Source: Acidobacteriota bacterium
GTDB lineage: Bacteria > Acidobacteriota > Terriglobia > Bryobacterales > Bryobacteraceae
Direction: 5' to 3'
Assembly: GCA_016213775.1 (NCBI GenBank)
Contig: JACQZR010000049.1
Span: forward strand, 1 to 64,000
DNA length: 64,000 bases
Positions 1 through 12,287 of the stretch are shown one piece after another. Numbering within the stretch: the stretch's first letter is position 1; the number at the start of each line of letters is the position of its first letter. The notes under the pieces are model-generated. The model had not been told where the DNA came from. It ran no database searches and saw only the letters and a list, made by a program, of their open reading frames with translations. A program made the translations under genes and the position numbers.

Positions 1-279
1 AAGATGCCGCGGATGGCAACAGCGGATTGTTTTGAGGTCGAGAATAAGGCGCGCAACGCGCGACGCCTAGAACACCAGGCCGACCGCCTTTGAGGCGGCC
101 CAACTCATCAAGCCACCCGCTTCGCGGGGGGTGTCTGACTTAGCGGCGATGCGAAATAGCCGTTGCAGCTAGTCGTAACTCGAGGAGTAACTTGACCATG
201 TCAACAAACACAAACTTGAATCAGGCCAGCAACTCCGGAGCGTAGGCCAACTGGAGAGGCACCCGGCCGTCTACCGGGG
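1..279. other. Intergenic segment with two hairpins and a 15-codon ORF
   Basis: No recognisable gene lies here. Two short GC-rich stem-loops are visible: CCGCC/GGCGG around 80-95, and CCCGC/GCGGG around 116-130. Neither is followed by a clear T-run, so a terminator call is weak. A 15-residue ORF starts at ATG 198 behind a good Shine-Dalgarno (CGAGGAGTAA, 181-190) and ends at TAG 243-245; it begins MSTNTNLN and matches nothing I know. The 3' end of rtcR reads toward this segment from the right. Confidence 0.35.
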
Positions 280-1896
280 TCAGGCGAGTTCCTTTCTCGT
301 ACGCTCCGCCACGCTATCGCCGTGCGCAGCGATCCCCGGCCAATCGAGATCAAATCGCGCTAAGTATTTTCGCAGCCGGTCGGCGTCGTTCGACGTGGTC
401 TTCTTTGCCCGTGACGCGCTGAACAAAACGCGGCCTGCCTCCGACAACGACCGGCTCCGCGTGCACACCGCCAGCACCTCGGCCAATTGCGCCTGATCGA
501 ACAGGTCAATCGCGGCCAGTTGTTTCGCGGAAAAGAATTTCCCGAGGACCCCTCGGCTGGATTGCGCCGGCCCTCGCCACCCCGCGCGCAGCCGCTCGAT
601 CTCCTCGGCTACGACATCGTCGGAAATGCGCCCCCCTGGAGCAAGCGTCGCCATCCGGGCCACCGCGGCATTCAGGTCGCGGAAGTTGCCCCTCCACGCC
701 GATGACGGCGCGAGCGCGAAGCTCAGAAACTTCGCCCGCGCCTCCCGGCTGAACGTGATCCGCCGTCCGGTGCGCCCGGCATACTGTTCGAGTTCGAATT
801 CCAGGTTCGGTTCGATGTCCTCGGGCCGAACCTGCAATCCCGGCAGCGCAAATGTCCAAAGATTGATCCGTGCCAGCAGGTCTTCGCGAAAGCGGCCCTG
901 GTGCACTTCAGTGAGCAGGTCGCGATTGGTCCCGGCGATCAGTTGAAAGTCGCTGCTGGCGTCGCGGTCCGAACCCAGGGGCAGGAATGTCTTTTCCTCC
1001 AGAGCCCGCAGCAGCATGGCCTGCTCATCGAGTCCGAGTTCACCAATTTCGTCGAGAAACAGAACGCCGCCATCGGCAGCACGAAGCAGACCGGGGCGGT
1101 CGCGCAACGCGCCAGTAAAGGAGCCTTTTGTATGACCGAACAACGCCGACATCGCGCCATCACCGCGAATGGTGGCGCAATTGACATCCACGAAATCGCC
1201 CTTCACGGCATGCCGCAGTTTCTTCAGCTCGAAGATCTTGCGGGCCAACCGGGACTTGCCGGCGCCCGTGGGTCCCATCAGCAGCAGCGGGTCGCGCGTC
1301 GCAATCGCCACTTGCTCAATCCGCGCGATCAGGCGATTAAACGCCTTGTTGCGCGTCTCAATGCCGCTCTTCAGAAACGACGCGCCCTCCCGTTGCTCCT
1401 CTTGAAACCGCGAGGCAATACGGTCGTAGCGCGATAGGTCGAGGTCGATGATCTTGATGGTCCCGGGCGCGCTGCGGTCCCGCTCCGGCGAGCACTGCAG
1501 CAAACGCCCGGGCAGCCATCGGGCCTCCGTAAGGAGAAAGAGACAAATCTGCGCGACGTGCGTACCGGTGGTGATGTGGATCAGATAATCTTCCGCATCG
1601 TCAAACCGGTACGCCTTGGCGAAGCCGAACAGCGTGTCGTACACCTGCTCAAAGTCCCAGGGATCGCCGAAATCGACGGCGTGCAGCCGGACCTCGGTCT
1701 CCGGCGATACGGTCTCAATATCGCCGCGGATCAGATGCGCCAGCGCACTCTCCCGCGGACCATGCAGCAGTTCGAAACGCCGCACAATCAAATCCGGTTG
1801 GCGGCAAACAGAAATCGTTGGACGCCAGTTCTGCCAGCGTTCCGGGCTCTTGCCCTGATCGAGTGTGCTGCCGAGAAGTCCGATAACCGTGGCCAT
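280..1896 (-). CDS. rtcR: RtcR, CARF-domain sigma-54-dependent activator of the RNA repair operon
   Basis: This is a transcriptional activator that switches on rtcBA-type RNA repair operons through sigma-54 RNA polymerase. The roughly 185-residue N-terminal part is the CARF-type sensor, recognisable by the RtcR signatures SPETEV and DYLIHITTGTHVAQIC. The AAA+ domain follows, with Walker A GPTGAGKS (208-215), the sigma-54 contact loop as GSFTGA (258-263, a variant of GAFTGA) and Walker B GGVLFLDEIGE. The C-terminus ends in the conserved NDADRLRKYLARF segment. Length (538 aa) and order match Escherichia coli RtcR. The frame could open at TTG 1902, but the ATG at 1896 fits the family N-terminus better. 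It is divergent from rsr, and its target promoter lies in the 128-bp gap. In studied systems the CARF domain responds to damaged tRNA ends; that ligand is only inferred here. Confidence 0.96.
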   Translation of the reverse strand: MATVIGLLGSTLDQGKSPERWQNWRPTISVCRQPDLIVRRFELLHGPRESALAHLIRGDIETVSPETEVRLHAVDFGDPWDFEQVYDTLFGFAKAYRFDDAEDYLIHITTGTHVAQICLFLLTEARWLPGRLLQCSPERDRSAPGTIKIIDLDLSRYDRIASRFQEEQREGASFLKSGIETRNKAFNRLIARIEQVAIATRDPLLLMGPTGAGKSRLARKIFELKKLRHAVKGDFVDVNCATIRGDGAMSALFGHTKGSFTGALRDRPGLLRAADGGVLFLDEIGELGLDEQAMLLRALEEKTFLPLGSDRDASSDFQLIAGTNRDLLTEVHQGRFREDLLARINLWTFALPGLQVRPEDIEPNLEFELEQYAGRTGRRITFSREARAKFLSFALAPSSAWRGNFRDLNAAVARMATLAPGGRISDDVVAEEIERLRAGWRGPAQSSRGVLGKFFSAKQLAAIDLFDQAQLAEVLAVCTRSRSLSEAGRVLFSASRAKKTTSNDADRLRKYLARFDLDWPGIAAHGDSVAERTRKELA

Positions 1897-1983
1897 ATCC
1901 AATATTCTAAGTATTTATTTTATCAGATCGTATGGCACACCGACGAGAAGACGCCAAACAAGCAGAATCAGCAACATACGGTT

Positions 1984-1999
1984 TGGCACATGCGATGCA
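1984..1999 (+). promoter_or_regulatory. Sigma-54 (-24/-12) promoter for the RNA repair operon
   Basis: The sequence TGGCACATGCGATGCA matches the sigma-54 consensus TGGCAC-N5-TTGCW with one mismatch in the -12 element (ATGC for TTGC). The GG at 1985-1986 and GC at 1997-1998 have the exact 12-base register required. The predicted start of transcription near 2010 lies 15 bases before the rsr ATG. It faces away from rtcR, as expected for an RtcR-activated operon. A second TGGCAC at 1933-1938 lacks the -12 GC and is not a promoter by itself. Confidence 0.8.
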
Positions 2000-2024
2000 C
2001 TGCAAGAAAGCGAGGAAACGAAAC

Positions 2025-3578
2025 ATGGCAAGCAAGTCACTGTTCGCAACGTTGCGCGGAGCGCTCATCCCACAAACCAACACCGTCAACTCGCACGGCG
2101 CTTCCGCCTACGGGCTGGCGCCCAAGCAGGCCCTGGCCCAGTACGCCGCAACGGGATGCTTCGGCCGCACCTTCTATGCCACCGCCGGCGAGCAGCTCAC
2201 GCGAGTGCTCCAGTTGTGTGACGCCCTCCATCCGCGTTACGTCGCGCAGGTGGCCATTTACAGCCGTACCAGCTCGCTCATGAAGGACATGCCCGCGCTG
2301 CTCTGCGCCTGGCTGTCCCATCGCGATCCGCGGCTGCACGAGGTCGTCTTTCATAGAGTCATCGACAACGCGCGCATGCTGCGCAGCTACGTTCAGATCT
2401 TGCGGTCCGGTGTGGTTGGCCGGAAATCGTTGGGAAGCGCTCCCAAGCGGCTGGTGAGGGAATGGCTCGCCAGCCGTTCGCCGGAGGCTCTCTTCCGTGC
2501 CGGCGTGGGCCAGAGCCCGTCACTCGCCGACATCGTGAAGATGGTTCACCCGAAGCCGGACAACGCGCAACGCCAGGCCTTTTACGGCTACATGCTTGGC
2601 AGCGGCTACGCAGCCGCTGCCCTGCCCGCTCTCATCACGCAGTTCGAACTGTTCAAGTCAGGCCAATCGAAGCAGGCCCCCGATCTCCCATTTCCCATGT
2701 TGACGGCGCTCCCGTTGACCAAGGCGCATTGGATCGAGATCGCGAAGAACGCATCGTGGCAAACCCTGCGCATGAACTTGAACACCTTTGCCCGGCACGG
2801 CGTGTTCTCGCACGACGGTATGCCGCGGCAGATCGCAAAGCGCCTGCGCAACGCCTCTGAAGTGAAGCGCGCGCGGGTGTTCCCTTACCAATTGCTGACG
2901 GCGTATCAGCATTGCGACGCCGCCGTTCCGCAAGAGGTGCGCGAAAGCCTCCACGAGGCAATGGAGCTCGCAACCGCGAACGTGCCTCGTGTGAAAGGCG
3001 ACGTAGTCGTGTGTCCCGACGTCTCCGGCTCCATGAAGAGCCCGGTATCTGGACACCGCAAGGGTGCGTCGAGCAAGGTTCGCTGCATCGACGTTACCGC
3101 GCTTGTGGCGGCAACCATCATTCGCAAGAACCCCTCGGCGCTGGTGCTGCCCTTTGAGCAGAACGTGATTTCGGTGCGGTTGTCGCCGTCGGATAGCATC
3201 ATGACGAACGCGACAATGCTGGCGTCCATTGGCGGAGGCGGAACCAACTGCAGCGCTCCGTTGCGGCAGTTGAACGAAGCCAAGGCCAAGGCCGATCTGG
3301 TGATCTTCGTGTCCGACAACGAATCCTGGGTGGATTCGGGACGGGGACGCGGAACCGCATTGATGGCGGAGTGGTCCGCTTTCCGCCGCCGCAATCCGCA
3401 AGCCCGTCTGGTGTGCCTGGACATCCAGCCCAACCAGACGACGCAGGCGGCAGAGCGCGCGGACATCTTGAACATCGGCGGATTCGCCGACCCGGTGTTT
3501 GAGGTAATCGCCGCCTTCTCCAGGGGCGAATTGGAGGCGGACCACTGGGTGGAGCGTATCGAAGCAATAGCAGCGTAG
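2025..3578 (+). CDS. rsr: Rsr, Ro60-like TROVE-domain RNA-binding protein
   Basis: Bacterial ortholog of the Ro60 autoantigen, a ring of HEAT-like repeats that binds noncoding Y RNAs and misfolded or damaged RNA and can tether them to nucleases. The TROVE ring covers about residues 1-320. A von Willebrand A domain follows, with a MIDAS motif DVSGSM at 332-337 and an SDNESW motif further on. The length of 517 aa is close to Deinococcus Rsr. An in-frame ATG exists upstream at 1932, but that start would place the sigma-54 promoter inside the gene. ATG 2025 has a GAGG Shine-Dalgarno at 2012-2015 and starts MASKSLF. It is first in the repair operon and is followed directly by its presumptive Y RNA ligand. 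Confidence 0.95.
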   Translation: MASKSLFATLRGALIPQTNTVNSHGASAYGLAPKQALAQYAATGCFGRTFYATAGEQLTRVLQLCDALHPRYVAQVAIYSRTSSLMKDMPALLCAWLSHRDPRLHEVVFHRVIDNARMLRSYVQILRSGVVGRKSLGSAPKRLVREWLASRSPEALFRAGVGQSPSLADIVKMVHPKPDNAQRQAFYGYMLGSGYAAAALPALITQFELFKSGQSKQAPDLPFPMLTALPLTKAHWIEIAKNASWQTLRMNLNTFARHGVFSHDGMPRQIAKRLRNASEVKRARVFPYQLLTAYQHCDAAVPQEVRESLHEAMELATANVPRVKGDVVVCPDVSGSMKSPVSGHRKGASSKVRCIDVTALVAATIIRKNPSALVLPFEQNVISVRLSPSDSIMTNATMLASIGGGGTNCSAPLRQLNEAKAKADLVIFVSDNESWVDSGRGRGTALMAEWSAFRRRNPQARLVCLDIQPNQTTQAAERADILNIGGFADPVFEVIAAFSRGELEADHWVERIEAIAA

Positions 3579-3582
3579 GAAC

Positions 3583-3721
3583 GTGGGCGGCGAATGCCGA
3601 AGGAACTACATGGCTCATAACCCGACGGTTCCCGGTTCGAATCCGGGTCGCGCGATCAATTGCCGCGCGGTAGCTCAATGGTAGAGCATCGACTGTTTCT
3701 TCACACCTTGTCGCCGTCCAC
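3583..3721 (+). ncRNA. yrlA: YrlA-like bacterial Y RNA with circularly permuted tRNA-like module
   Basis: The ends pair in an 11-bp helix (3583-3593 with 3711-3721, one G-U). Inside it sits the Ro-binding element GCCGAAGG (3596-3603), whose AAGG pairs with CCTT (3706-3709); this fits the bacterial Y RNA motif GNCGAAGG. The distal part is a permuted tRNA. It has a T arm CCCGG-TTCGAAT-CCGGG (3631-3647) and a 7-bp acceptor-like stem (3648-3654 with 3664-3670, outer pair U-G) closed by a 9-base loop instead of free ends. Then come UA (positions 8-9), a 4-bp D stem GCTC/GAGC (3673-3676, 3684-3687) with GG in its loop, and a start of an anticodon-like stem (3689-3691 with 3623-3625). The 5-base variable region is canonical. 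It lies between rsr and rtcB, as Yrl RNAs do in Salmonella. Exact transcript ends are not known. Confidence 0.88.
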
Positions 3722-3765
3722 TTTATGGCCACCTATATCGACGACCATAGAAATAAGGAACGAAC

Positions 3766-4998
3766 ATGCCGGAAGCAACCTACAACGTCATCAACACCAA
3801 AGAAGGCGTGCCCATCAAGGCCTGGACCAAGGGCGTCCAGCTCGAAGACCAGGCTCGCCAGCAGCTCATCAACGCCGCCCAGCTTCCGTTCATACACAAG
3901 TGGATCGCGGCGATGCCCGACGTACATTGGGGCGTCGGCGCAACCGTCGGCAGCGTCATCCCCACCAAGGGCGCGATCATCCCCGCGGCGGTCGGCGTCG
4001 ATATCGGCTGCGGCATGATGGCCGTCCAGACCAGCCTCAACGCCATCCATCTGCCCGACAACCTGCGCGGCATCCGGCTCGCTATTGAAGAGGCCGTACC
4101 GCACGGACGCACCAACCATGGCGGCTCCGGCGATCGCGGCGCATGGCACGACATCCCCACGCGCAACCAGAACGTATGGCTCGGCGAGTTGAAGCCTCGC
4201 TACGATGCGATCCTCGCCAAACATCCCAAGCTCGACCGCGGCAACCACGCCAATCACCTCGGCACACTCGGCACAGGCAACCACTTTATTGAGGTCTGCC
4301 TGGATGAAGCGGATCAGGTCTGGTTCATGCTGCACAGCGGATCGCGCGGCGTTGGCAACCGAATGGGCACCTATTTCATCGATCTCGCCCGGAAGGATAT
4401 GAAGAAGTTTTTCGTCAACCTTCCCGACGTTGATCTGGCGTACTTCCCCGAGCGCACGGACCACTTCAACGATTACGTCGAGGCGGTGGAATGGGCTCAG
4501 GACTATGCCCGCCGCAACCGCGATCTCATGATGGCCCAGATTGTCGAAGCCGTGCGCGACTGCGGACTCGTGCCGCCGTTCAACGCCGAATTGAAGGCCA
4601 TCAACTGCCATCACAATTACGTCGCCCGCGAATCGCATTACGGCGAAAACGTCTTCGTCACCCGCAAGGGTGCGGTGCGGGCTCGCCTCGACGATATGGG
4701 TATCATCCCGGGCAGCATGGGTGCGCGCTCCTACATCGTTCGCGGCAAAGGCAACCCCGAGAGCTTCCATAGCTGCAGCCACGGCGCGGGCCGCGCCATG
4801 TCGCGCAACGAAGCCAAGAGGCGGTTCACCGTGGAAGATCACAAGCGCATGACTCAGGGTGTGGAATGCCGCAAGGACGCGGACGTGATCGACGAAACGC
4901 CCGCCGCTTATAAGTCCATTGACGCGGTGATGGCGGCCCAGTCGGATCTCGTCGAGATCGTCCATACGCTGCGGCAGGTAGTGTGTGTCAAAGGGTAA
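3766..4998 (+). CDS. rtcB: RtcB, GTP/Mn-dependent 3'-phosphate RNA ligase
   Basis: RtcB joins RNA ends bearing 3'-phosphate or 2',3'-cyclic phosphate to 5'-OH ends through a histidine-GMP intermediate, repairing cleaved tRNAs and rRNA. Visible active-site elements are DIGCGM with Asp79 and Cys82, GTGNHFIEV, HSGSRGVGN, NCHHNY and SCSHGAGR with the guanylylated His at about 339. The length of 410 aa matches the Escherichia coli type (408 aa). Start ATG 3766 has AAGGAA (3755-3760) upstream. It follows the Y RNA and is separated from rtcA by 12 bases, so translation is likely coupled. No defect is visible. Confidence 0.98.
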   Translation: MPEATYNVINTKEGVPIKAWTKGVQLEDQARQQLINAAQLPFIHKWIAAMPDVHWGVGATVGSVIPTKGAIIPAAVGVDIGCGMMAVQTSLNAIHLPDNLRGIRLAIEEAVPHGRTNHGGSGDRGAWHDIPTRNQNVWLGELKPRYDAILAKHPKLDRGNHANHLGTLGTGNHFIEVCLDEADQVWFMLHSGSRGVGNRMGTYFIDLARKDMKKFFVNLPDVDLAYFPERTDHFNDYVEAVEWAQDYARRNRDLMMAQIVEAVRDCGLVPPFNAELKAINCHHNYVARESHYGENVFVTRKGAVRARLDDMGIIPGSMGARSYIVRGKGNPESFHSCSHGAGRAMSRNEAKRRFTVEDHKRMTQGVECRKDADVIDETPAAYKSIDAVMAAQSDLVEIVHTLRQVVCVKG

Positions 4999-5010
4999 AT
5001 GAGGTGAACC

Positions 5011-6030
5011 GTGGTTCGCATTGATGGTTCGTTTGGCGAAGGCGGAGGGCAGATTCTGCGCTCGTCGCTCACCCTGTCGTTGGTCACTGGCACACCATTT
5101 GCCATAGAGAAGATTCGTGCACACCGGGAAAAGCCCGGTCTGCTCCGGCAGCACCTTACGGCAGTTCTCGCCGCGGCGGAGGTTGGCGGCGCAACTGTCG
5201 ATGGCGCCGTGCTCGGATCCACTTCGTTGCGCTTCACGCCCGGCAAAGTCCGCGGCGGCGAATACCGCTTTGCCGTTGGCACCGCCGGCAGCGGCACCCT
5301 CGTCTTCCAAACCGTGCTCCCTGCACTGCTGCTCGCAGGCGCACCCAGCCACGTCACCATCGAGGGCGGAACCCACAACCACGCCGCTCCGCCGTATCAC
5401 TTTCTCGCCCGCACGTTTCTGCCGCTTGTCGAGCGCATGGGCGCGCAATGCACACTGCAATTCGACAAGTACGGCTTCTATCCGGCCGGAGGCGGGCGCT
5501 TCACCGCCTGCATCACACCAGTGCCGCGGCTCACCCCGATCGTTCTCGGTGAGCGGAGCGAAATCACCACCCGCCGCATCGTCGCCGTGGTCGCGAACCT
5601 CGCACGCCACATCGCGCAGCGCGAAGTGGACACGGCGGGCGGCATGCTCAACTGGTCCCACGACACGCATGTCATCGAATCCACCCGGGAATCCATCGGG
5701 CCCGGCAATGTCGTCATGATCGAGATCGCCACACACGACGTGACCGAGATGTTCACGGCCTTTGGCCAACTAGGCGTTTCGGCAGAAAAGGTCGCCACCA
5801 CCGCCGCTAAGGAAGCCCGCGAATACCTCGCCTCGCGGGCCTCCGCCGCTGAACATCTCACTGACCAACTGCTGCTCCCCATGGCCCTCGCCGGAGGTGG
5901 CGAATTCACGGCGCTCAAACTCAACATGCACGCCCGCACCAACATGGACGTGATCGCCCGCTTCCTCCCCGTCCGCTTTGAGGCCATCGAGCATGATGGA
6001 TACGTACACGTGAAGGTCACCAAGGAATAA
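5011..6030 (+). CDS. rtcA: RtcA, RNA 3'-terminal phosphate cyclase
   Basis: RtcA converts RNA 3'-phosphates (or 2'-phosphates) to 2',3'-cyclic phosphates using ATP through a covalent His-AMP intermediate, and can adenylylate 5'-phosphate ends. The N-terminal family signature DGSFGEGGGQILRSSL is present. So are the conserved REKPGL and GTAGSGTL elements and the HxxTN nucleophile motif at about His307 (HARTN). The length of 339 aa is typical. GTG 5011 is taken as the start because GAGGTG lies at 5001-5006 and the signature begins five residues in. It is third in the operon; the next gene begins 3 bases after the stop. Confidence 0.97.
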   Translation: MVRIDGSFGEGGGQILRSSLTLSLVTGTPFAIEKIRAHREKPGLLRQHLTAVLAAAEVGGATVDGAVLGSTSLRFTPGKVRGGEYRFAVGTAGSGTLVFQTVLPALLLAGAPSHVTIEGGTHNHAAPPYHFLARTFLPLVERMGAQCTLQFDKYGFYPAGGGRFTACITPVPRLTPIVLGERSEITTRRIVAVVANLARHIAQREVDTAGGMLNWSHDTHVIESTRESIGPGNVVMIEIATHDVTEMFTAFGQLGVSAEKVATTAAKEAREYLASRASAAEHLTDQLLLPMALAGGGEFTALKLNMHARTNMDVIARFLPVRFEAIEHDGYVHVKVTKE

Positions 6031-6033
6031 CCC

Positions 6034-7458
6034 GTGCTATTGCACATCACACAAACCGGCTCCAACGCCACCGGCCTCGGCTACCTTCTGCACAAGAATC
6101 CGGCGAATCTGCACGAAGTCAAACTGCCCTTCGGCAAGGCCACCGTCTTTTACCCGGCGGCTACGGATGACCGTTGCACGGCCTGCCTGCTTCTGGAAAT
6201 CGATCCCGTCGAACTCGTCCGCGGCGCGCGCCAATTGGAGGCTTACGTCAACGACCGTCCCTACGTCGCGTCCTCTTATATGACGGTCGCTATCGGCCGC
6301 GTCTTCGGCACCGCGCTGGCCGGCAACTGCGCCAGGCGGCCCGAGCTGGTCCACTGCAAACTACCGCTCCAACTCACGGTGGAAGTGGTCCGAACGCGAG
6401 GTGGTGAAGAAGTGCTGCACAGGCTCTTCCAACCTCTCGGCTACCACGTCGAAGCCAGGCGTCTCCCGCTCGACAACAAGTTCCCCGAATGGGGAGAGAG
6501 CCCGTACTTCCGTCTCACCCTGACAGCCGAGATCACCGTCCACAACGCCCTCACGCACCTCTACGTCCTTCTCCCCGTCCTCGACGATGAGAAGCACTAC
6601 TACATCGGCGAAGCAGAAGTGGACAAGCTGCTCCGCCACGGCGAAGGCTGGCTCAAACAGCACCCTGAACAGCGCATGATCGTCTCACGCTACCTGCAAC
6701 GCCGCGGCGCTCTCACCACGCAGGCCTTTGAACAACTGCTGGAAGAAGAGACCGCCTCCGTGGAAGCAGCGGAATCCAAAACCGAGAAGGCGGCGCAGCA
6801 GGAACGCGAACTCGAGCGTCCCATGACGCTTCACACGCAGCGACTGAATACCGTTGCCGCACGCCTCAAGGAACTCGGCGCTCGCAGCGTCCTCGACCTC
6901 GGCTGCGGCGAGGGCAAACTCCTCCGCCGTCTTCTGGCGGACCGTACCTTCGAACGCATCGTCGGCATGGACGTCAGCCATCGCTCCCTGCAGATCGCCT
7001 CGGCCCGGCTGCGCCTCGACCGCATGCCGGAGCGCCAGCGCAAGCGCATCGAGCTCATGCAGGGTTCGCTGCTTTATCGCGATCAACGGCTGAGCGGTTT
7101 CGATGCCGCCGCCCTCGTCGAAGTGATCGAGCATCTCGATGTCCCCCGTCTCGCCGCACTGGAACGAGTACTGTTCGAATTCGCCCGGCCGCGGCATATC
7201 CTCATCACGACGCCCAACCGCGAATACAACGTCCTCTTCCCTACCCTGCCCGAAGGCCGAATGCGCCACGGCGACCACCGCTTTGAATGGACCCGCGCCG
7301 AATTCGCCGCGTGGGCCACAGCCACAGCTACGCGCTTCGCATATGACGTGAAGCTGGAACCTGTCGGACCGTTGACGAAACGCACGGTGCGCCATCGCAG
7401 ATGGCCGTGTTCACACTGCGGGAGGAATCGCACCAATGAAGACCATCGAAATCCCTGA
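6034..7458 (+). CDS. hen1: Hen1, 3'-terminal RNA ribose 2'-O-methyltransferase, with an apparent 3'-end frameshift
   Basis: Bacterial Hen1 methylates the 2'-OH of the 3' nucleotide of a cleaved RNA before Pnkp reseals it, making the repaired site resistant to renewed cleavage. Residues 1-240 are the Hen1-type N-terminal domain. The C-terminal half is the SAM methyltransferase, with LDLGCGEGKLL near 290, the Mn-binding motif EVIEH (363-367), TPNREYN and the distal His segment RHGDHRFEW. GTG 6034 has AAGGA inside the rtcA stop region. The family C-terminus GAPSQMAVF is encoded one frame off. A single missing base near 7371 would give VDETHGAPSQMAVF and a TGA at 7437-7439 overlapping the pnkp ATG. 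As read, the protein ends instead in an unrelated tail at 7458. The catalytic core is intact. Confidence 0.92.
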   Translation: MLLHITQTGSNATGLGYLLHKNPANLHEVKLPFGKATVFYPAATDDRCTACLLLEIDPVELVRGARQLEAYVNDRPYVASSYMTVAIGRVFGTALAGNCARRPELVHCKLPLQLTVEVVRTRGGEEVLHRLFQPLGYHVEARRLPLDNKFPEWGESPYFRLTLTAEITVHNALTHLYVLLPVLDDEKHYYIGEAEVDKLLRHGEGWLKQHPEQRMIVSRYLQRRGALTTQAFEQLLEEETASVEAAESKTEKAAQQERELERPMTLHTQRLNTVAARLKELGARSVLDLGCGEGKLLRRLLADRTFERIVGMDVSHRSLQIASARLRLDRMPERQRKRIELMQGSLLYRDQRLSGFDAAALVEVIEHLDVPRLAALERVLFEFARPRHILITTPNREYNVLFPTLPEGRMRHGDHRFEWTRAEFAAWATATATRFAYDVKLEPVGPLTKRTVRHRRWPCSHCGRNRTNEDHRNP

Positions 7459-9985
7459 ACTCGCCGTTGTGGCGCTCATGGGCGCCACCGGCTCCGGCAA
7501 GTCCACCTTCGCCCGCGAGCATTTTCGCCCGACGGAGATTCTCTCCTCGGACTATTTCCGCGGCGTTGTCAACGACGACGAGACCGATCAAAGCGCCACT
7601 CAGGATGCCTTCGACGCTCTTTACTATGTCCTCGCCAAGCGGCTGGCGCGTGGCAAGCTCACCGTCATTGATGCCACCAACGTCCGCCAGGAGGACCGCA
7701 GGCGCATCGTCGAAACTGCGCGGAAGTTCCACTGCTTCGCCGTGGCCATCGTCGTCAACACGCCCGAAAAGATCTGCCAGGAGCGCAACGCCCAGCGTCC
7801 CGGCCGCGACTTCGGACCACATGTCGTACGGCGACAGGTTCACGATCTGCGCCGCGGTCTCCACGGTCTCGATCGCGAAGGTTTTCGCTACGTGCACATC
7901 CTCGGCGGCACGGATCGGGTGGAGATCCAGCGCACTCGCATCTGGACCAATCGCAAAGAAGAAACGGGTCCATTCGACATCATCGGCGACCTGCACGGCT
8001 GCGCTCCCGAACTTCGTTTGCTCCTCGACCAACTCGGCTGGCAGCGCCACGACGTCGACCCCGCGGATCCCGTCTGGGGCAGCGAGAGCTTCCAGCATCC
8101 GCAAGGCCGCAAGGCTATCTTCGTCGGCGACCTGGTGGATCGCGGCCCGGGAATCCTCAACTGCGTCCGCATCGTTCGTAACATGGTTCACACCGGCCAT
8201 GCGCTCTGCGTGGCCGGCAATCACGACGTGAAACTCCTCCGCTGGCTGCGCGGCAAGCAGATACAGATGCGGCACGGTCTCGATCTTTCCGCAGCCGAAC
8301 TGGAGCCTCTGCTGCCCGATCACCGCGCCCCCATCGCATCGTTCCTGGATAGCCTCCTCAGCCACTACGTGCTCGATGGCGGCAAACTCGTCGTCGCCCA
8401 TGCCGGACTGCGTGAGGAAATGCACGGACGTACCTCGGGGCAGGTCCGCGAGTTCTGCCTCTACGGCGAAACCACCGGAGAGACCGACGAGTTCGGTCTG
8501 CCTGTCCGCTACAACTGGGCCTCCGAATACCGTGGACGCGCGTCGGTGGTCTACGGCCACACACCCGTACCATCTCCCGAATGGCTGAACAACACCGTCA
8601 ACATCGACACCGGCGCGGTCTTTGGCGGCAAACTCACCGCGCTCCGTTATCCCGAGCGCGAATTCATTTCCGTGCCAGCCGCACGCGAGTACGCTATACC
8701 CGCGCGCCCCCTCGCGCCTCCGCCGGAAAACCGCACCAATCAACAAGTGCTCGACGACGTCCTCGATCTGGAAGATGTCACCGGCAAGCGCTTGATTGAA
8801 ACACGCGTCCTTCGTCACATTACTATCCGCGAGGAGAACGCCATCGCTGCACTCGAGGTCCTGAGCCGTTTCGCCACCGATCCGCACTGGCTCATCTATC
8901 TGCCGCCCACCATGTCGCCGAGTGAAACCTCCGATCGCGAGCACTACCTCGAATACCCGGCCGAAGGCTTTGCCTACTTTCGCAAGAACGGCGTCGACCG
9001 CGTCATCTGCGAAGAGAAGCACATGGGCTCCCGCGCCGTTGTCATCGTGTGCCGCGACACCGCTGCCGCCCGCGAACGCTTCGGTACGTTGGAAGACCGC
9101 ATCGGTGTATGTTACACGCGCACCGGCCGGCCGTTCTTTCCGGATGCCGCCGAAGAGCGCGCATTCCTCGATCGTGTCCACGCGGCCATCACCCGCGCCG
9201 GCCTTTGGGAAGAGTTCCACACTACGTGGCTCTGCCTCGATTGCGAACTGATGCCATGGTCCGCCAAAGCGCGTGAGTTGCTGCAGCGGCAGTACGCTCC
9301 GGTCGCCACGGCCGGGATCGCGTCACTGCAGGCCACCGCGGCCGCGCTTCGTCAAAGCCCCGCGGCGCAACACATGGCTGCGGACTTTGACCAGCGCCTC
9401 GCACGCCTCATGAAGTACCGGAAAGCTTACCAGCGTTACTGCTGGCCCGTCACTTCGATAGCCGATTACAAACTCGCGCCGTTTCATCTGCTCGCTTCCG
9501 AGGGCGCTGTACACACCGACAAGACACACCGCTGGCACATGGACACCCTCCATCGACTGGCTGAGGCCGACCCCGGCTTCCTCATCGCAACCTCCTTCCT
9601 CGACGTAAACCTCAACGACTCGGACGCCGTGGCGCGCGCCGGCGAGTGGTGGGAACAGCTCACTAACCACGGCGGCGAGGGTATGGTCATCAAGCCGCTC
9701 GCTTACCTCTCCAACGGACCCAAGGGACTCATCCAACCCGCCCTCAAATGCCGCGGCCGCGAGTACCTGCGCATCATTTACGGTCCTGAATACACCGCTC
9801 CCGACCAACTGCCGCGCCTGCGCAAGCGGGCCGTCTCTGGTAAGCGATCGATGGCCGCCCGTGAGTTCGCTCTTGGTCTCGAAGCCCTCCACCGCTTTGT
9901 CGCCCGCGAACCGCTCCGCCGAGTGCACGAATGCATCTTCGGCGTCCTCGCGCTGGAAAGCGAACCTGTCGATCCACGGCTGTAA
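7436..9985 (+). CDS. pnkp: Pnkp, polynucleotide kinase-phosphatase-ligase
   Basis: A three-domain end-healing and sealing enzyme that partners Hen1. The N-terminal kinase has P-loop GATGSGKS (16-23) and phosphorylates 5'-OH ends. The central binuclear metallophosphoesterase has GDLHG (from about 183), GDLVDRGPG (from about 231) and GNHD (about 261) and removes 2',3'-cyclic or 3'-phosphates. The C-terminal ligase-like adenylyltransferase has the nucleophile motif EKHMGSRA with Lys528. The length of 849 aa is normal for bacterial Pnkp (about 850-870). The ATG overlaps the ancestral hen1 stop as ATGA, the usual coupling. In this context it supplies a second ligation route, different from RtcB. 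No defects are seen. Confidence 0.97.
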   Translation: MKTIEIPELAVVALMGATGSGKSTFAREHFRPTEILSSDYFRGVVNDDETDQSATQDAFDALYYVLAKRLARGKLTVIDATNVRQEDRRRIVETARKFHCFAVAIVVNTPEKICQERNAQRPGRDFGPHVVRRQVHDLRRGLHGLDREGFRYVHILGGTDRVEIQRTRIWTNRKEETGPFDIIGDLHGCAPELRLLLDQLGWQRHDVDPADPVWGSESFQHPQGRKAIFVGDLVDRGPGILNCVRIVRNMVHTGHALCVAGNHDVKLLRWLRGKQIQMRHGLDLSAAELEPLLPDHRAPIASFLDSLLSHYVLDGGKLVVAHAGLREEMHGRTSGQVREFCLYGETTGETDEFGLPVRYNWASEYRGRASVVYGHTPVPSPEWLNNTVNIDTGAVFGGKLTALRYPEREFISVPAAREYAIPARPLAPPPENRTNQQVLDDVLDLEDVTGKRLIETRVLRHITIREENAIAALEVLSRFATDPHWLIYLPPTMSPSETSDREHYLEYPAEGFAYFRKNGVDRVICEEKHMGSRAVVIVCRDTAAARERFGTLEDRIGVCYTRTGRPFFPDAAEERAFLDRVHAAITRAGLWEEFHTTWLCLDCELMPWSAKARELLQRQYAPVATAGIASLQATAAALRQSPAAQHMAADFDQRLARLMKYRKAYQRYCWPVTSIADYKLAPFHLLASEGAVHTDKTHRWHMDTLHRLAEADPGFLIATSFLDVNLNDSDAVARAGEWWEQLTNHGGEGMVIKPLAYLSNGPKGLIQPALKCRGREYLRIIYGPEYTAPDQLPRLRKRAVSGKRSMAAREFALGLEALHRFVAREPLRRVHECIFGVLALESEPVDPRL

Positions 9986-10010
9986 GCGGGAAGGAGTACT
10001 ATGGCTACAA

Positions 10011-12287
10011 ATGCGCCTCCTTACATTGTTATTGACTATCTTCGCCGCAGACGCAGCCGCGCAACTGCGTCTGGATCGCTCGGCGCCTAACTTCGACAGC
10101 CTCTTGCGATTCGAAGTGGACCACCCAGGTAGCAGACCGTTCGGATGGAGTGGCGGTCCAGGGATCGTCGCGGTGGATAAAGATGTCGTGCACGGCGGTA
10201 AGTGGTCGGCCAGGATCACCCGCCAGCCCGACACCGAAGGAGGCTTCAGCAGCGTCACTACAGGTATCCCGGTGGACTTCGCCGGGAAGGAAATCGTCCT
10301 CAAAGGGTTTCTCAAAACCGAATCCGTCAAGGACTTTGCCGCATTCTGGATTCGGCTCGATGGGGACACTCCGGGCATGGCTTTTGACAGCATGCAGAAA
10401 CTGGGCTTCAACGGGACCAACGACTGGGGCGAGCACTCTGTCCGCATTCCACTCCCCGCCGGGGGCAAACAACTATTCTTCGGCTTCCTGCTGAGTGGTC
10501 CCGGCACTGTCTGGGCAGACGACATAGAATTAATTGTCGACGGCAAGCCGGTAAGCACCCTCCCGAAAGTAGAACGGACTAAGACCGTTCTCGACACGGA
10601 CCGCGAGTTCGAAACATCTTCCGGTATTAATTTCACCGTCCTTTCCGATGTACAGATCCAAAACCTGGCTACATTAGCAAGAGTATGGGGATTTCTGAAA
10701 TACCACCATCCGGATGTTACTTCCGGGAAGCGCCATTGGGATTACGACTTATTCCGCATCCTTCCGGCGGTGCTCGCCGCCGCGGATCGCAACACCAGCA
10801 ACGAGGAGATCCTCAAATGGGTGGATAAGCTCTCACCTGTTCCGCCGTGCACGGCCTGCGTCACGCTCAGCACCGAAAAACTGCATTTCAAACCCGATCT
10901 CGACTGGCTTGGGAACGCATCCCTTCTCGGACCGGCACTCAGCCAGCGCTTGATGTCCATCCAGCGCAACCGCCCCAAACCCGACAAACAATTCTTCGTT
11001 GGACGGAACATGGGCGTCGGCAACCCCGACTTCCAGGTGGAGCCCGGCTACTCCGCCGTCAAATTTCCCGACCCCGGCTATCAACTCCTTGCCGTATACC
11101 GCTTCTGGAACATCATCCAATACTGGTTCCCCTACCGCGATCAAATCGGCGAAGACTGGAGTGCGGTGCTCACCCGGTTCCTGCCTCGGGTCGCACTTGC
11201 CAAGACCAGGGACGAATACCAACTTCAGTTGATGGCTCTCATTGCCACCATTCACGACACGCATGCCAATCTATGGAGTTCGCTTCAAGTGCGTCCTCCC
11301 GTGGGACAGTGCCAGCTTCCGGTGTACCTGCGCTTCCTCGACAACCGTGCCGTGGTCACGGCCTACGCCGATCCCAAGGACGGTCCGGCAAGCGGGATCA
11401 AGATCGGCGACATCATCACCGACATCGAGGGCAAACCCGTGGCCAAGTTGGTGGAAGAATGGCGTCCTTTCTATGCAGCTTCCAACGAGCCCACCCGCCT
11501 GCGCGACATTGCAGGCTCGCTCACCAAAGGCCCTTGCGCCGAAACCTCGCTACGCGTGGAAGGCGTCGACGGTCCTCGCGAAATCAAGGCAACACGAGTC
11601 ACGGTCAAGGGGCGCGAACCACACGACGTGCCCGGCGACAACTACCGCGTTCTTTCCAAAGACGTTGGCTACATGAAGCTCTCCAGTGTCAAGTCCGACC
11701 GTCTGCATTCGTTCATCGACAGCATTGCCTCCACCAAAGGGGTGATCATCGACATCCGCAACTATCCATCCGATTTCGTCACGTTCACGCTCGGCCAACT
11801 GCTGGTGGACAAGCCATCCGAATTTGTCGTCTTCACTTCGGGCGATCAATCCAACCCCGGAGCCTTTCACTACGGCACCCCGCTGACGCTCCAGCCGCAG
11901 ACTCCGCACTACAACGGCAAGGTCGTACTACTGATCGACGAAGTGACGCAGTCCTCCGCTGAGTATCACTCGATGGCGTTCCGCGCATCGCCGCGGACCA
12001 CGGTCGTGGGCAGCACCACGGCCGGCGCTGACGGGAACGTTTCGCGCTTTTCGCTCCCGGGCGGACTCAGCAGCATGATCAGCGGCATCGGTGTCTTCTA
12101 CCCCGACCATAGACCCACCCAGCGCGTTGGCATTATCCCCGATGTACCCGCGCGTCCCACACTCAACGGCGTCCGTGAAGGACGCGATGAAGTGCTGGAG
12201 GAGGGAATCCGCCAGATCCTCGGCAGCGACGCATCGCAATCCACCATCCGCGATCTGGCCCGCCAAGCCCGCGGGACACAACAATGA
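10011..12287 (+). CDS. Secreted S41-family (C-terminal-processing type) peptidase
   Basis: The protein begins with a hydrophobic signal peptide (MRLLTLLLTIFAADAAA). The N-terminal 200 residues resemble a carbohydrate-binding-like beta domain. The middle includes a PDZ-like stretch (ASGIKIGDIITDIEGKPV). The C-terminal S41 protease core contains GYMKLSS, VIIDIRNY and TQSSAEY, with the probable catalytic Ser near residue 648. It is a serine protease presumed to act in the periplasm; the substrate is unknown. ATG 10011 is chosen because the signal peptide starts there; an ATG at 10001 is out of frame. It begins 25 bases after pnkp on the same strand, with AAGGAG at 9991-9996. It may be read through from the repair operon, but a functional link is speculative. 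Confidence 0.85.
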   Translation: MRLLTLLLTIFAADAAAQLRLDRSAPNFDSLLRFEVDHPGSRPFGWSGGPGIVAVDKDVVHGGKWSARITRQPDTEGGFSSVTTGIPVDFAGKEIVLKGFLKTESVKDFAAFWIRLDGDTPGMAFDSMQKLGFNGTNDWGEHSVRIPLPAGGKQLFFGFLLSGPGTVWADDIELIVDGKPVSTLPKVERTKTVLDTDREFETSSGINFTVLSDVQIQNLATLARVWGFLKYHHPDVTSGKRHWDYDLFRILPAVLAAADRNTSNEEILKWVDKLSPVPPCTACVTLSTEKLHFKPDLDWLGNASLLGPALSQRLMSIQRNRPKPDKQFFVGRNMGVGNPDFQVEPGYSAVKFPDPGYQLLAVYRFWNIIQYWFPYRDQIGEDWSAVLTRFLPRVALAKTRDEYQLQLMALIATIHDTHANLWSSLQVRPPVGQCQLPVYLRFLDNRAVVTAYADPKDGPASGIKIGDIITDIEGKPVAKLVEEWRPFYAASNEPTRLRDIAGSLTKGPCAETSLRVEGVDGPREIKATRVTVKGREPHDVPGDNYRVLSKDVGYMKLSSVKSDRLHSFIDSIASTKGVIIDIRNYPSDFVTFTLGQLLVDKPSEFVVFTSGDQSNPGAFHYGTPLTLQPQTPHYNGKVVLLIDEVTQSSAEYHSMAFRASPRTTVVGSTTAGADGNVSRFSLPGGLSSMISGIGVFYPDHRPTQRVGIIPDVPARPTLNGVREGRDEVLEEGIRQILGSDASQSTIRDLARQARGTQQ

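Follow-up and report, generated by a model that had tools for sequence, protein, structure and literature searches.

A composite RNA-repair locus in an Acidobacteriota bacterium: hen1 and pnkp behind an RtcR-rsr-Y RNA-rtcBA operon

Parts of the locus

The 64,000-nucleotide stretch of DNA analysed here (the window) belongs to contig JACQZR010000049.1 of an Acidobacteriota bacterium (assembly GCA_016213775.1) and carries, at positions 280-9985, an RNA-repair locus organized as two divergent transcription units. The minus strand encodes rtcR, and the plus strand carries rsr, a Y RNA, rtcB, rtcA, hen1 and pnkp in that order. The first half of this arrangement is the known RtcR-rsr-Y RNA-rtcBA operon, and the new element is the hen1-pnkp pair after rtcA. 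Gene anatomy and comparison with relatives make it probable that the whole is a composite, damage-inducible RNA-repair operon in which Hen1/Pnkp stand under RtcR control. The host belongs to the class that includes Terriglobus: G281, a genome of the same class, has the Hen1 that is also found in the Terriglobus albidus locus L042. The host assembly comprises 314 contigs totalling 10.96 Mb. The start of the window is a contig end, which limits the view past rtcR. The locus comprises the following features.

280-1902, minus strand: rtcR, CARF-AAA+ sigma-54 activator (start TTG 1902 or ATG 1896)
1984-1999, plus strand: sigma-54 promoter-like site TGGCACATGCGATGCA, its first base 41 nt ahead of the rsr ATG
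2025-3578, plus strand (open frame 1932-3578): rsr, Ro/TROVE-vWA protein (Pfam, alignment to 2nvo)
3587-3720, plus strand: YrlA-type Y RNA with tRNA-like T and D arms (RF02553, 70.9 bits)
3766-4998, plus strand: rtcB, 3'-phosphate/5'-OH RNA ligase (PF01139, 431 bits)
5011-6030, plus strand: rtcA (TIGR03399, 383 bits, cut-off 250)
6034-7458, plus strand: hen1, ligase-activating N-domain and 3'-terminal ribose 2'-O-methyltransferase (TIGR04074, 669 bits, cut-off 340)
7436-9985, plus strand: pnkp, kinase, metallophosphatase and ligase in a single chain (TIGR04075, 1345 bits, cut-off 750)

All seven features that a first-pass annotation of the bare sequence had named were recovered at the same places by profile searches and cmscan. 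Each of the six proteins passes its curated Pfam cut-off, and RtcR, RtcA, Hen1 and Pnkp also lie above their NCBIfam equivalog cut-offs, which RtcB and Ro do not. Specifically, RtcR scores 795 bits with the NCBIfam equivalog NF038308 (cut-off 650), 266 bits with Pfam RtcR and 824 bits with the PADLOC profile RtcR CARF_AAA_HTH; its CARF, AAA+ and C-terminal regions are all present, its Walker lysine is K216, and it is the only one of 27 matches to the RtcR profile in the genome that exceeds the cut-off. The Ro protein is above cut-off for Pfam vWA_Ro60 (60.7 bits) and TROVE (26.9 bits), carries the vWA metal-site motif DVSGSM at D332, and finds its nearest solved structure by sequence in Deinococcus Rsr (2nvo, E=4e-19, residues 21-503). 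Since it reaches 78.7 bits with the NCBIfam Rsr equivalog NF041674 against a cut-off of 900, it is a divergent member outside that narrow equivalog.

With respect to catalytic capacity, alignments to solved enzymes show that RtcB, RtcA, Hen1 and each of the three Pnkp domains keep the residues described as catalytic in the literature on these families. RtcB, the only RtcB match in the genome, retains its metal-site and guanylate-site residues, and RtcA His307 aligns with the solved RtcA 1qmh. Hen1 contains Hen1_L (352 bits) together with residues E363/E366/H367/H412 (solved homologues 4dqz and 3jwh). Pnkp (849 aa) has K22, D185/D232/N262/H322/H375 and K528 (solved homologues 4gp6, 4j6o and 4drf); the name given to the solved Pnkp homologue is 'polynucleotide 2',3'-cyclic phosphate phosphodiesterase / polynucleotide 5'-hydroxyl-kinase'. 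The residues singled out in the first-pass annotation, namely RtcB His339, RtcA His307, Hen1 E363-H367 (EVIEH) and Pnkp Lys528, were all verified by these alignments.

The Y RNA exceeds the gathering threshold of 69 bits for Rfam YrlA in cmscan and was the only YrlA match reported in the genome among the 150 of 614 first-look candidates that were scored. Nine aligned copies show two-sided changes that preserve pairing at 13 of the 23 consensus pairs. Among related loci (labelled L below), L169, L181 and L182 have a YrlA RNA above gathering in the rsr-rtcB interval, and weaker YrlA-like matches occupy the same position in L156 (four), L179, L184, L130 and L134. The corresponding region of L131 holds a weak YrlB only; no YrlA was found at the gathering threshold in L129 and L139, where no looser search was made, or at E<=0.5 in L036 and L159. 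The four RNAs of L156 lie in tandem (9712-10301, minus strand) and score 65.8, 52.3, 38.0 and 32.2 bits, each under gathering.

Promoter and transcript structure

The genes after the Y RNA are tightly packed, with gaps of 12 nt between rtcB and rtcA and 3 nt between rtcA and hen1 and an overlap of 23 nt between hen1 and pnkp, in agreement with the spacings given in the first-pass annotation (12 bases, 3 bases, overlap). Purine-rich stretches resembling ribosome-binding sites were seen by eye ahead of the rtcA, hen1 and pnkp starts. Within the rtcR-rsr spacer, the site at 1984-1999 is the top sigma-54-like site, and its score was reached in 0 of 500 single-base shuffles in a scan that used weights set by us from the sigma-54 consensus. 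This site falls within the longest Ro frame, which makes ATG 2025 the most likely start of Ro. Sigma-54-like sites were sought in 23 loci in all, of which 21, the window among them, have a divergent rtc gene; 18 of these 21, again with the window included, gave a site at shuffle p<0.03, with weaker sites in L138 (p=0.042) and L036 (p=0.054) and a chance-level score in L136 (0.51). The genome has a single copy of rpoN.

A simple consensus scan of 1850-10300 found no sigma-70-like promoter (2.0 expected) and six terminator-like sites (6.9 expected), which is not above chance. Spacing, overlap and the absence of other promoter-like sites lead us to infer a single transcript running from rsr to pnkp. 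The single sigma-54 promoter originally proposed for the locus is supported for rsr and the genes downstream of it, but not for rtcR, which runs in the opposite direction. A scan ahead of 35 hen1 genes, both linked and unlinked, gave a sigma-54-like site at p<0.05 for L157 alone (0.047), which is the chance level and offers no sign of sigma-54 control of unlinked hen1.

Several observations concern the surroundings of the locus. An S41-type peptidase gene (9861-12287, plus strand) apparently starts about 25 nt past pnkp on the same strand, and readthrough into it may occur; in L156 the gene after pnkp encodes a radical-SAM protein on the opposite strand. A tRNA-Asp called by ARAGORN at 237-311 (plus strand), overlapping the 3' end of rtcR, is probably false, as cmscan returned no tRNA there at E<=3; by eye its anticodon and T loops are odd, and no counterpart was found in those of the other RtcR loci that were scanned. 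The base composition of the locus (62.4% G+C, 60.6% in the rest of the window) gives no clear sign of a recent foreign island. A known anti-phage system was likewise set aside, since beyond RtcR itself PADLOC gave only weak matches of Hen1 and Pnkp to mads_2 and mads_3 (31.8 and 17.3 bits).

The join in relatives and in other lineages

Five genomes of five genera, namely the source of the window, G517, G488, G625 and G504, have rtc genes physically linked to hen1-pnkp. A survey of acidobacterial genomes for the gene order, which the first-pass annotation had put forward as a check, returned the window's order in G517 (L156), where rtcA and hen1 abut, hen1 and pnkp overlap by 4 nt and rtcR lies in two frames. 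The same order, with two extra genes inserted, was found in G488 (L169) and G625 (L201); in the latter a contig end cuts hen1 after 87 residues, and the remainder opens a separate contig, L232. G504 (L159) has rtcB-rtcA-hen1-pnkp with a frameshifted rtcA, no rtcR match in the genome and no rsr in the 20 kb examined. Purifying selection is apparent on all six protein genes in comparisons with L156 and/or L169 (dN/dS 0.05-0.15), where the value for pnkp against L156 was not computable and dS is near or past saturation. Since some related bacteria keep the same arrangement, the join looks real rather than one-off. The same-genus genome G518 (L181) has rtcR divergent from rsr-Y-rtcB-rtcA and no hen1 match, which is the pre-join or the post-loss state.

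The order-wide search (257 genomes, hen1 at E<=1e-50) found RtcR in 14, hen1 in 23 and both in five (G000, G482, G488, G517 and G625), a co-occurrence with Fisher p=0.004 when kinship is ignored and with linked genes co-occurring by construction. An earlier draw of 150 genomes from the family had given RtcR in nine, pnkp in 21 (partial copies counted) and both in five (p=0.003). At the level of the phylum, an even sample of 396 genomes (hen1 over cut-off, RtcR at E<=1e-100) held hen1 in 11 and RtcR in 15, with both in the source genome alone, and the other ten hen1 loci are hen1-pnkp pairs without rtc genes within the 7-20 kb examined. The statement that the two ligation systems usually occur apart is therefore borne out by the phylum sample, with both in one of 396, but has to be tempered by the recurrence of the combination in the order and elsewhere. 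Because of this recurrence the composite is less singular than first thought, and the idea of a unique composite is ruled out by the relatives that carry the same join.

The two extra genes of G488 and G625, here termed X1 and X2, lie between rtcA and hen1 in both cases and belong to the following set.

L169:3500-6151, minus strand: X2 (883 aa), between rtcA and hen1 in G488
L169:6133-7020, minus strand: X1 (~290 aa), between rtcA and hen1 in G488
L201:270-2927 and 2909-3769, minus strand: X1/X2 pair, between rtcA and hen1 in G625
L243:9190-11775, minus strand: X2 in G538 (44% identity), the third near-full-length copy of the order

G488 and G625 are two genera, and their X1 proteins are 63% and their X2 proteins 69% identical. 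In G538, X2 lies on the same strand as an rsr-rtcB-rtcA locus and 1.2 kb upstream of it; this genome lacks an RtcR match, and its pnkp is 3.2 Mb away. Six further genomes gave partial, C-terminal X2 matches only. Neither X1 nor X2 has a Pfam, NCBIfam or PADLOC match, and X2 found no match among solved-structure sequences or plasmids. The pair is a candidate new component of RNA repair.

Beyond the order, we examined the best 80 of at least 574 confirmed hen1 loci in a collection of species genomes; many of these loci are cut by contig ends, and the counts are lower bounds. rtcB was found near hen1 in at least seven of the 80 (L036, L044, L037, L049, L063, L078 and L108). As a background, 28 other open reading frames (ORFs) of the window were searched in the same loci, and 27 of them matched none of the 80 while one matched a single locus; the contrast is indicative only, because these ORFs were not picked to be as widespread as RtcB. 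In the acidobacterial locus L036 (5724-15700), rtcA-rtcB is divergent from rtcR-hen1-RlaP-RlaP-pnkp, so that hen1-pnkp stands behind rtcR and not behind rtcA. The RtcR and RtcB of L036 group with those of the window's family, its Hen1 falls in another, well-supported clade, and on this tree evidence L036 is a second, separately formed acidobacterial composite of different layout.

The remaining joins are more varied. In an alphaproteobacterial metagenome-assembled genome (L044:364-8133), Ro together with a weak YrlA (46 bits, below the gathering threshold) is divergent from rtcB-hen1-ankyrin protein-pnkp, and no RtcR was seen on the 8-kb contig. In the acidobacterial loci L037 (40-7789) and L049 (3413-13914), rtcB and hen1-pnkp lie amid 18 and 25 tRNA genes, respectively, an arrangement suggestive of an island for tRNA replacement and RNA repair. 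The Anabaena repressor TrcR governs both rtcB and a tRNA array that is induced by stress (PMC10272220). The RtcB proteins of L063, L078 and L108 are more distant (29-34% identity). On the Skermanella rosea plasmid pSR-1 (L188, 8001-15909), hen1-pnkp and an RtcB-PrfH pair occur within 8 kb, the pair lying 4.7 kb after hen1, and this cluster is a mobile RNA-repair cluster. RtcR matches in L038 and L074 cover the AAA+ part only and were rejected as RtcR, and hen1 had no match in 50,697 phage records.

Taken together, hen1-pnkp and rtcB seem to have been united repeatedly in unlike layouts, with L036 set against the window's family as the strongest case. A single joining followed by vertical descent is not supported: within the family, linked and unlinked hen1 genes are interspersed in the tree, and the hen1 of L036 falls in a different clade. 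A single early join within the family that was then lost several times may still have occurred. In the RtcB, RtcA, RtcR and Ro trees, in which many forks are weak, linked and unlinked copies are not separated.

Function, alternatives and known systems

Anatomy and comparison support the first-pass view of one operon behind one sigma-54-like promoter, with RtcR as the likely regulator and two modules that are truly joined, and we regard a composite, damage-inducible repair operon as the probable reading. A number of observations weigh against it. Co-occurrence of rtcR and hen1 across the phylum sample is at chance (Fisher p=0.35). In the order, 18 of the 23 hen1 loci are without an rtc gene in the sequence examined, which contig ends limit to about 0.1 kb ahead of hen1 in G474, 1.3 kb in G632, 2.3 kb in G511, 2.7 kb in G417 and 3.1 kb in G506, and nine of the 14 rtcR genomes have no hen1 match, although one of them, G404, has a piece of pnkp. 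The join is optional on these two counts, and G482 carries the rtc and hen1-pnkp modules on separate contigs. The background control for the hen1 loci is crude, its 28 ORFs being unmatched to RtcB for spread. In the Hen1 tree, many forks of which are weak, the linked copies do not group as a single clade (the duplicate rows L042/L024 and L157/L032 had been removed beforehand). Finally, a second sigma-54-like site inside rtcA (5088-5103) scores 14.3 against 14.5 for the spacer site, and a transcript may start there internally; this site was conserved in none of the 11 relatives checked.

By homology to Salmonella and E. coli, the CARF domain of RtcR would bind RNA fragments, probably of tRNA, that end in a 2',3'-cyclic phosphate, and RtcR would then activate the promoter at 1984-1999. 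Salmonella RtcR responds to RNA with this end (PMC7790460, PMC9879122), in line with the sensing of damaged RNA that the first-pass annotation ascribed to the CARF domain and that homology would extend to this locus, and in E. coli RtcA and RtcB are needed for RtcR activation and bind its CARF domain (PMC9650030). One transcript would yield Ro, Y RNA, RtcB, RtcA, Hen1 and Pnkp. Following the established chemistry of these families, RtcA would maintain 3' ends as cyclic phosphates and RtcB, whose substrates are a 2',3'-cyclic-phosphate or 3'-phosphate end and a 5'-OH end (PMC3973293), would reseal the break without a trace. Pnkp, with its Hen1-dependent ligase, would instead strip the cyclic phosphate, phosphorylate the 5' end and seal, and Hen1 would 2'-O-methylate the mend and so block re-cutting by the same nuclease; loss of Hen1 disables the Pnkp ligase, and 2'-O-methylation makes repaired RNA resistant to re-cutting (PMC4411300). 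Ro and the Y RNA would pass irreparable RNA to PNPase, by homology to Deinococcus, where Y RNA tethers Rsr to PNPase (PMC7790460); the genome has a single full-score PNPase gene.

Because Pnkp keeps its kinase and phosphatase, it should be able to convert the same ends that RtcB uses, and for this reason we prefer the same break with two outcomes, scarless or methyl-marked, over different ends for the two ligases. Overlap, competition or sequential use of RtcB and Pnkp/Hen1 is as likely as a division by end chemistry. Under RtcR, Hen1/Pnkp and RtcBA would have their substrate ends in common, and perhaps the inducing signal as well.

A further role for Hen1/Pnkp as an off-switch is a tentative possibility. 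The pair would remove 2',3'-cyclic phosphates and methylate the 2'-OH, and would in this way destroy the RtcR inducer and bar its return. The Salmonella signal, RNA with precisely this end (PMC7790460, PMC9879122), would fit, as would the presence of the Pnkp and Hen1 active-site residues and a co-expression under RtcR that would close the loop; RtcB likewise consumes cyclic-phosphate ends, however, and the nine rtcR genomes of the order without a hen1 match argue against it. A complete circuit, in which RtcR senses RNA ends with a cyclic phosphate, RtcBA provides fast reversible resealing and Hen1/Pnkp then removes these ends and 2'-O-methylates the break, conferring immunity and shutting RtcR off, with X1 and X2 as added repair components in a subset, strikes us as rather speculative and improbable as a whole.

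It also appears unlikely that hen1-pnkp is a mobile cassette that landed behind rtcA and is expressed by readthrough or from its own promoter, with no cooperation with RtcBA. The prevalence of hen1-pnkp without rtc genes in the order and the scatter of linked copies in the Hen1 tree are what such a cassette would give, and hen1-pnkp does occur on plasmids (21 PLSDB records matched), where four of five annotated neighbourhoods, in tables that are incomplete, have no annotated RtcB. The Salmonella RtcR regulon, moreover, also takes in the downstream dinJ-yafQ module (PMC9879122). Against this stand the recurrence of joins in several lineages over the crude background and the abutting or overlapping coding ends of the window and L156.

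Also unlikely is the proposal of the first-pass annotation that labour is split by end chemistry, which would have RtcB/RtcA handling 3'-phosphate or cyclic-phosphate and 5'-OH ends and Hen1/Pnkp others such as 3'-OH/5'-phosphate: the Pnkp ligase seals 3'-OH/5'-phosphate ends, which RtcB cannot, and active-site residues are conserved in both modules, but the split is doubtful since the Pnkp kinase and phosphatase convert the very ends that RtcB joins and the ranges overlap.

Under the preferred reading of a composite operon, the locus bears on what controls Hen1/Pnkp and on why cells keep two mends for the same break. It may serve as a natural experiment: a single regulator, with a signal that is understood in Salmonella, apparently governs both routes, and the operon without hen1-pnkp in close relatives, among them G518 of the same genus, supplies a comparison set. 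Methylating repair that depends on RtcR and is induced by damage is the resulting prediction, and the interplay of scarless and marked repair becomes testable.

In terms of known systems, the first half resembles Salmonella rsr-yrlBA-rtcBA in its divergent RtcR, sigma-54 promoter, leading Ro gene, YrlA-type RNA and rtcB-rtcA order (PMC7790460, PMC9879122). It differs in what lies downstream, which in Salmonella is dinJ-yafQ, with Hen1 unmentioned in the main texts of those two papers, and in having one Y RNA found where Salmonella has two. The second half resembles the bacterial Pnkp/Hen1 pair for repair with immunity, with hen1 directly before a three-domain pnkp and Hen1_L joined to the methyltransferase (PMC4411300). 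The Pnkp1-Rnl-Hen1 complex described in that paper shares Hen1-dependent methylating repair, predicted here from the genes, but has a separate ligase protein and hen1 elsewhere, whereas the window has kinase, phosphatase and ligase in one chain beside hen1. The RtcB2-PrfH module also places an RtcB-family ligase within a repair module (PMC9223846); in contrast, PrfH is not among the six proteins of our locus, whose RtcB falls far below the cut-offs for release-factor-associated RtcB (174.9 against 407 and 143 against 272 bits).

Burroughs and Aravind (2016) reportedly described wide shuffling of RNA-repair modules, including Ro/Y RNA, RtcB, Hen1, Pnkp and nucleotidyltransferase. The literature searched, in part as partial texts and with that study and Das and Shuman (2013) outside it, contained no paper with both the words RtcR and Hen1, and no report of Pnkp/Hen1 under RtcR or joined to rtcBA was found in it. 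Both halves of the locus are already known, and their join is a new combination.

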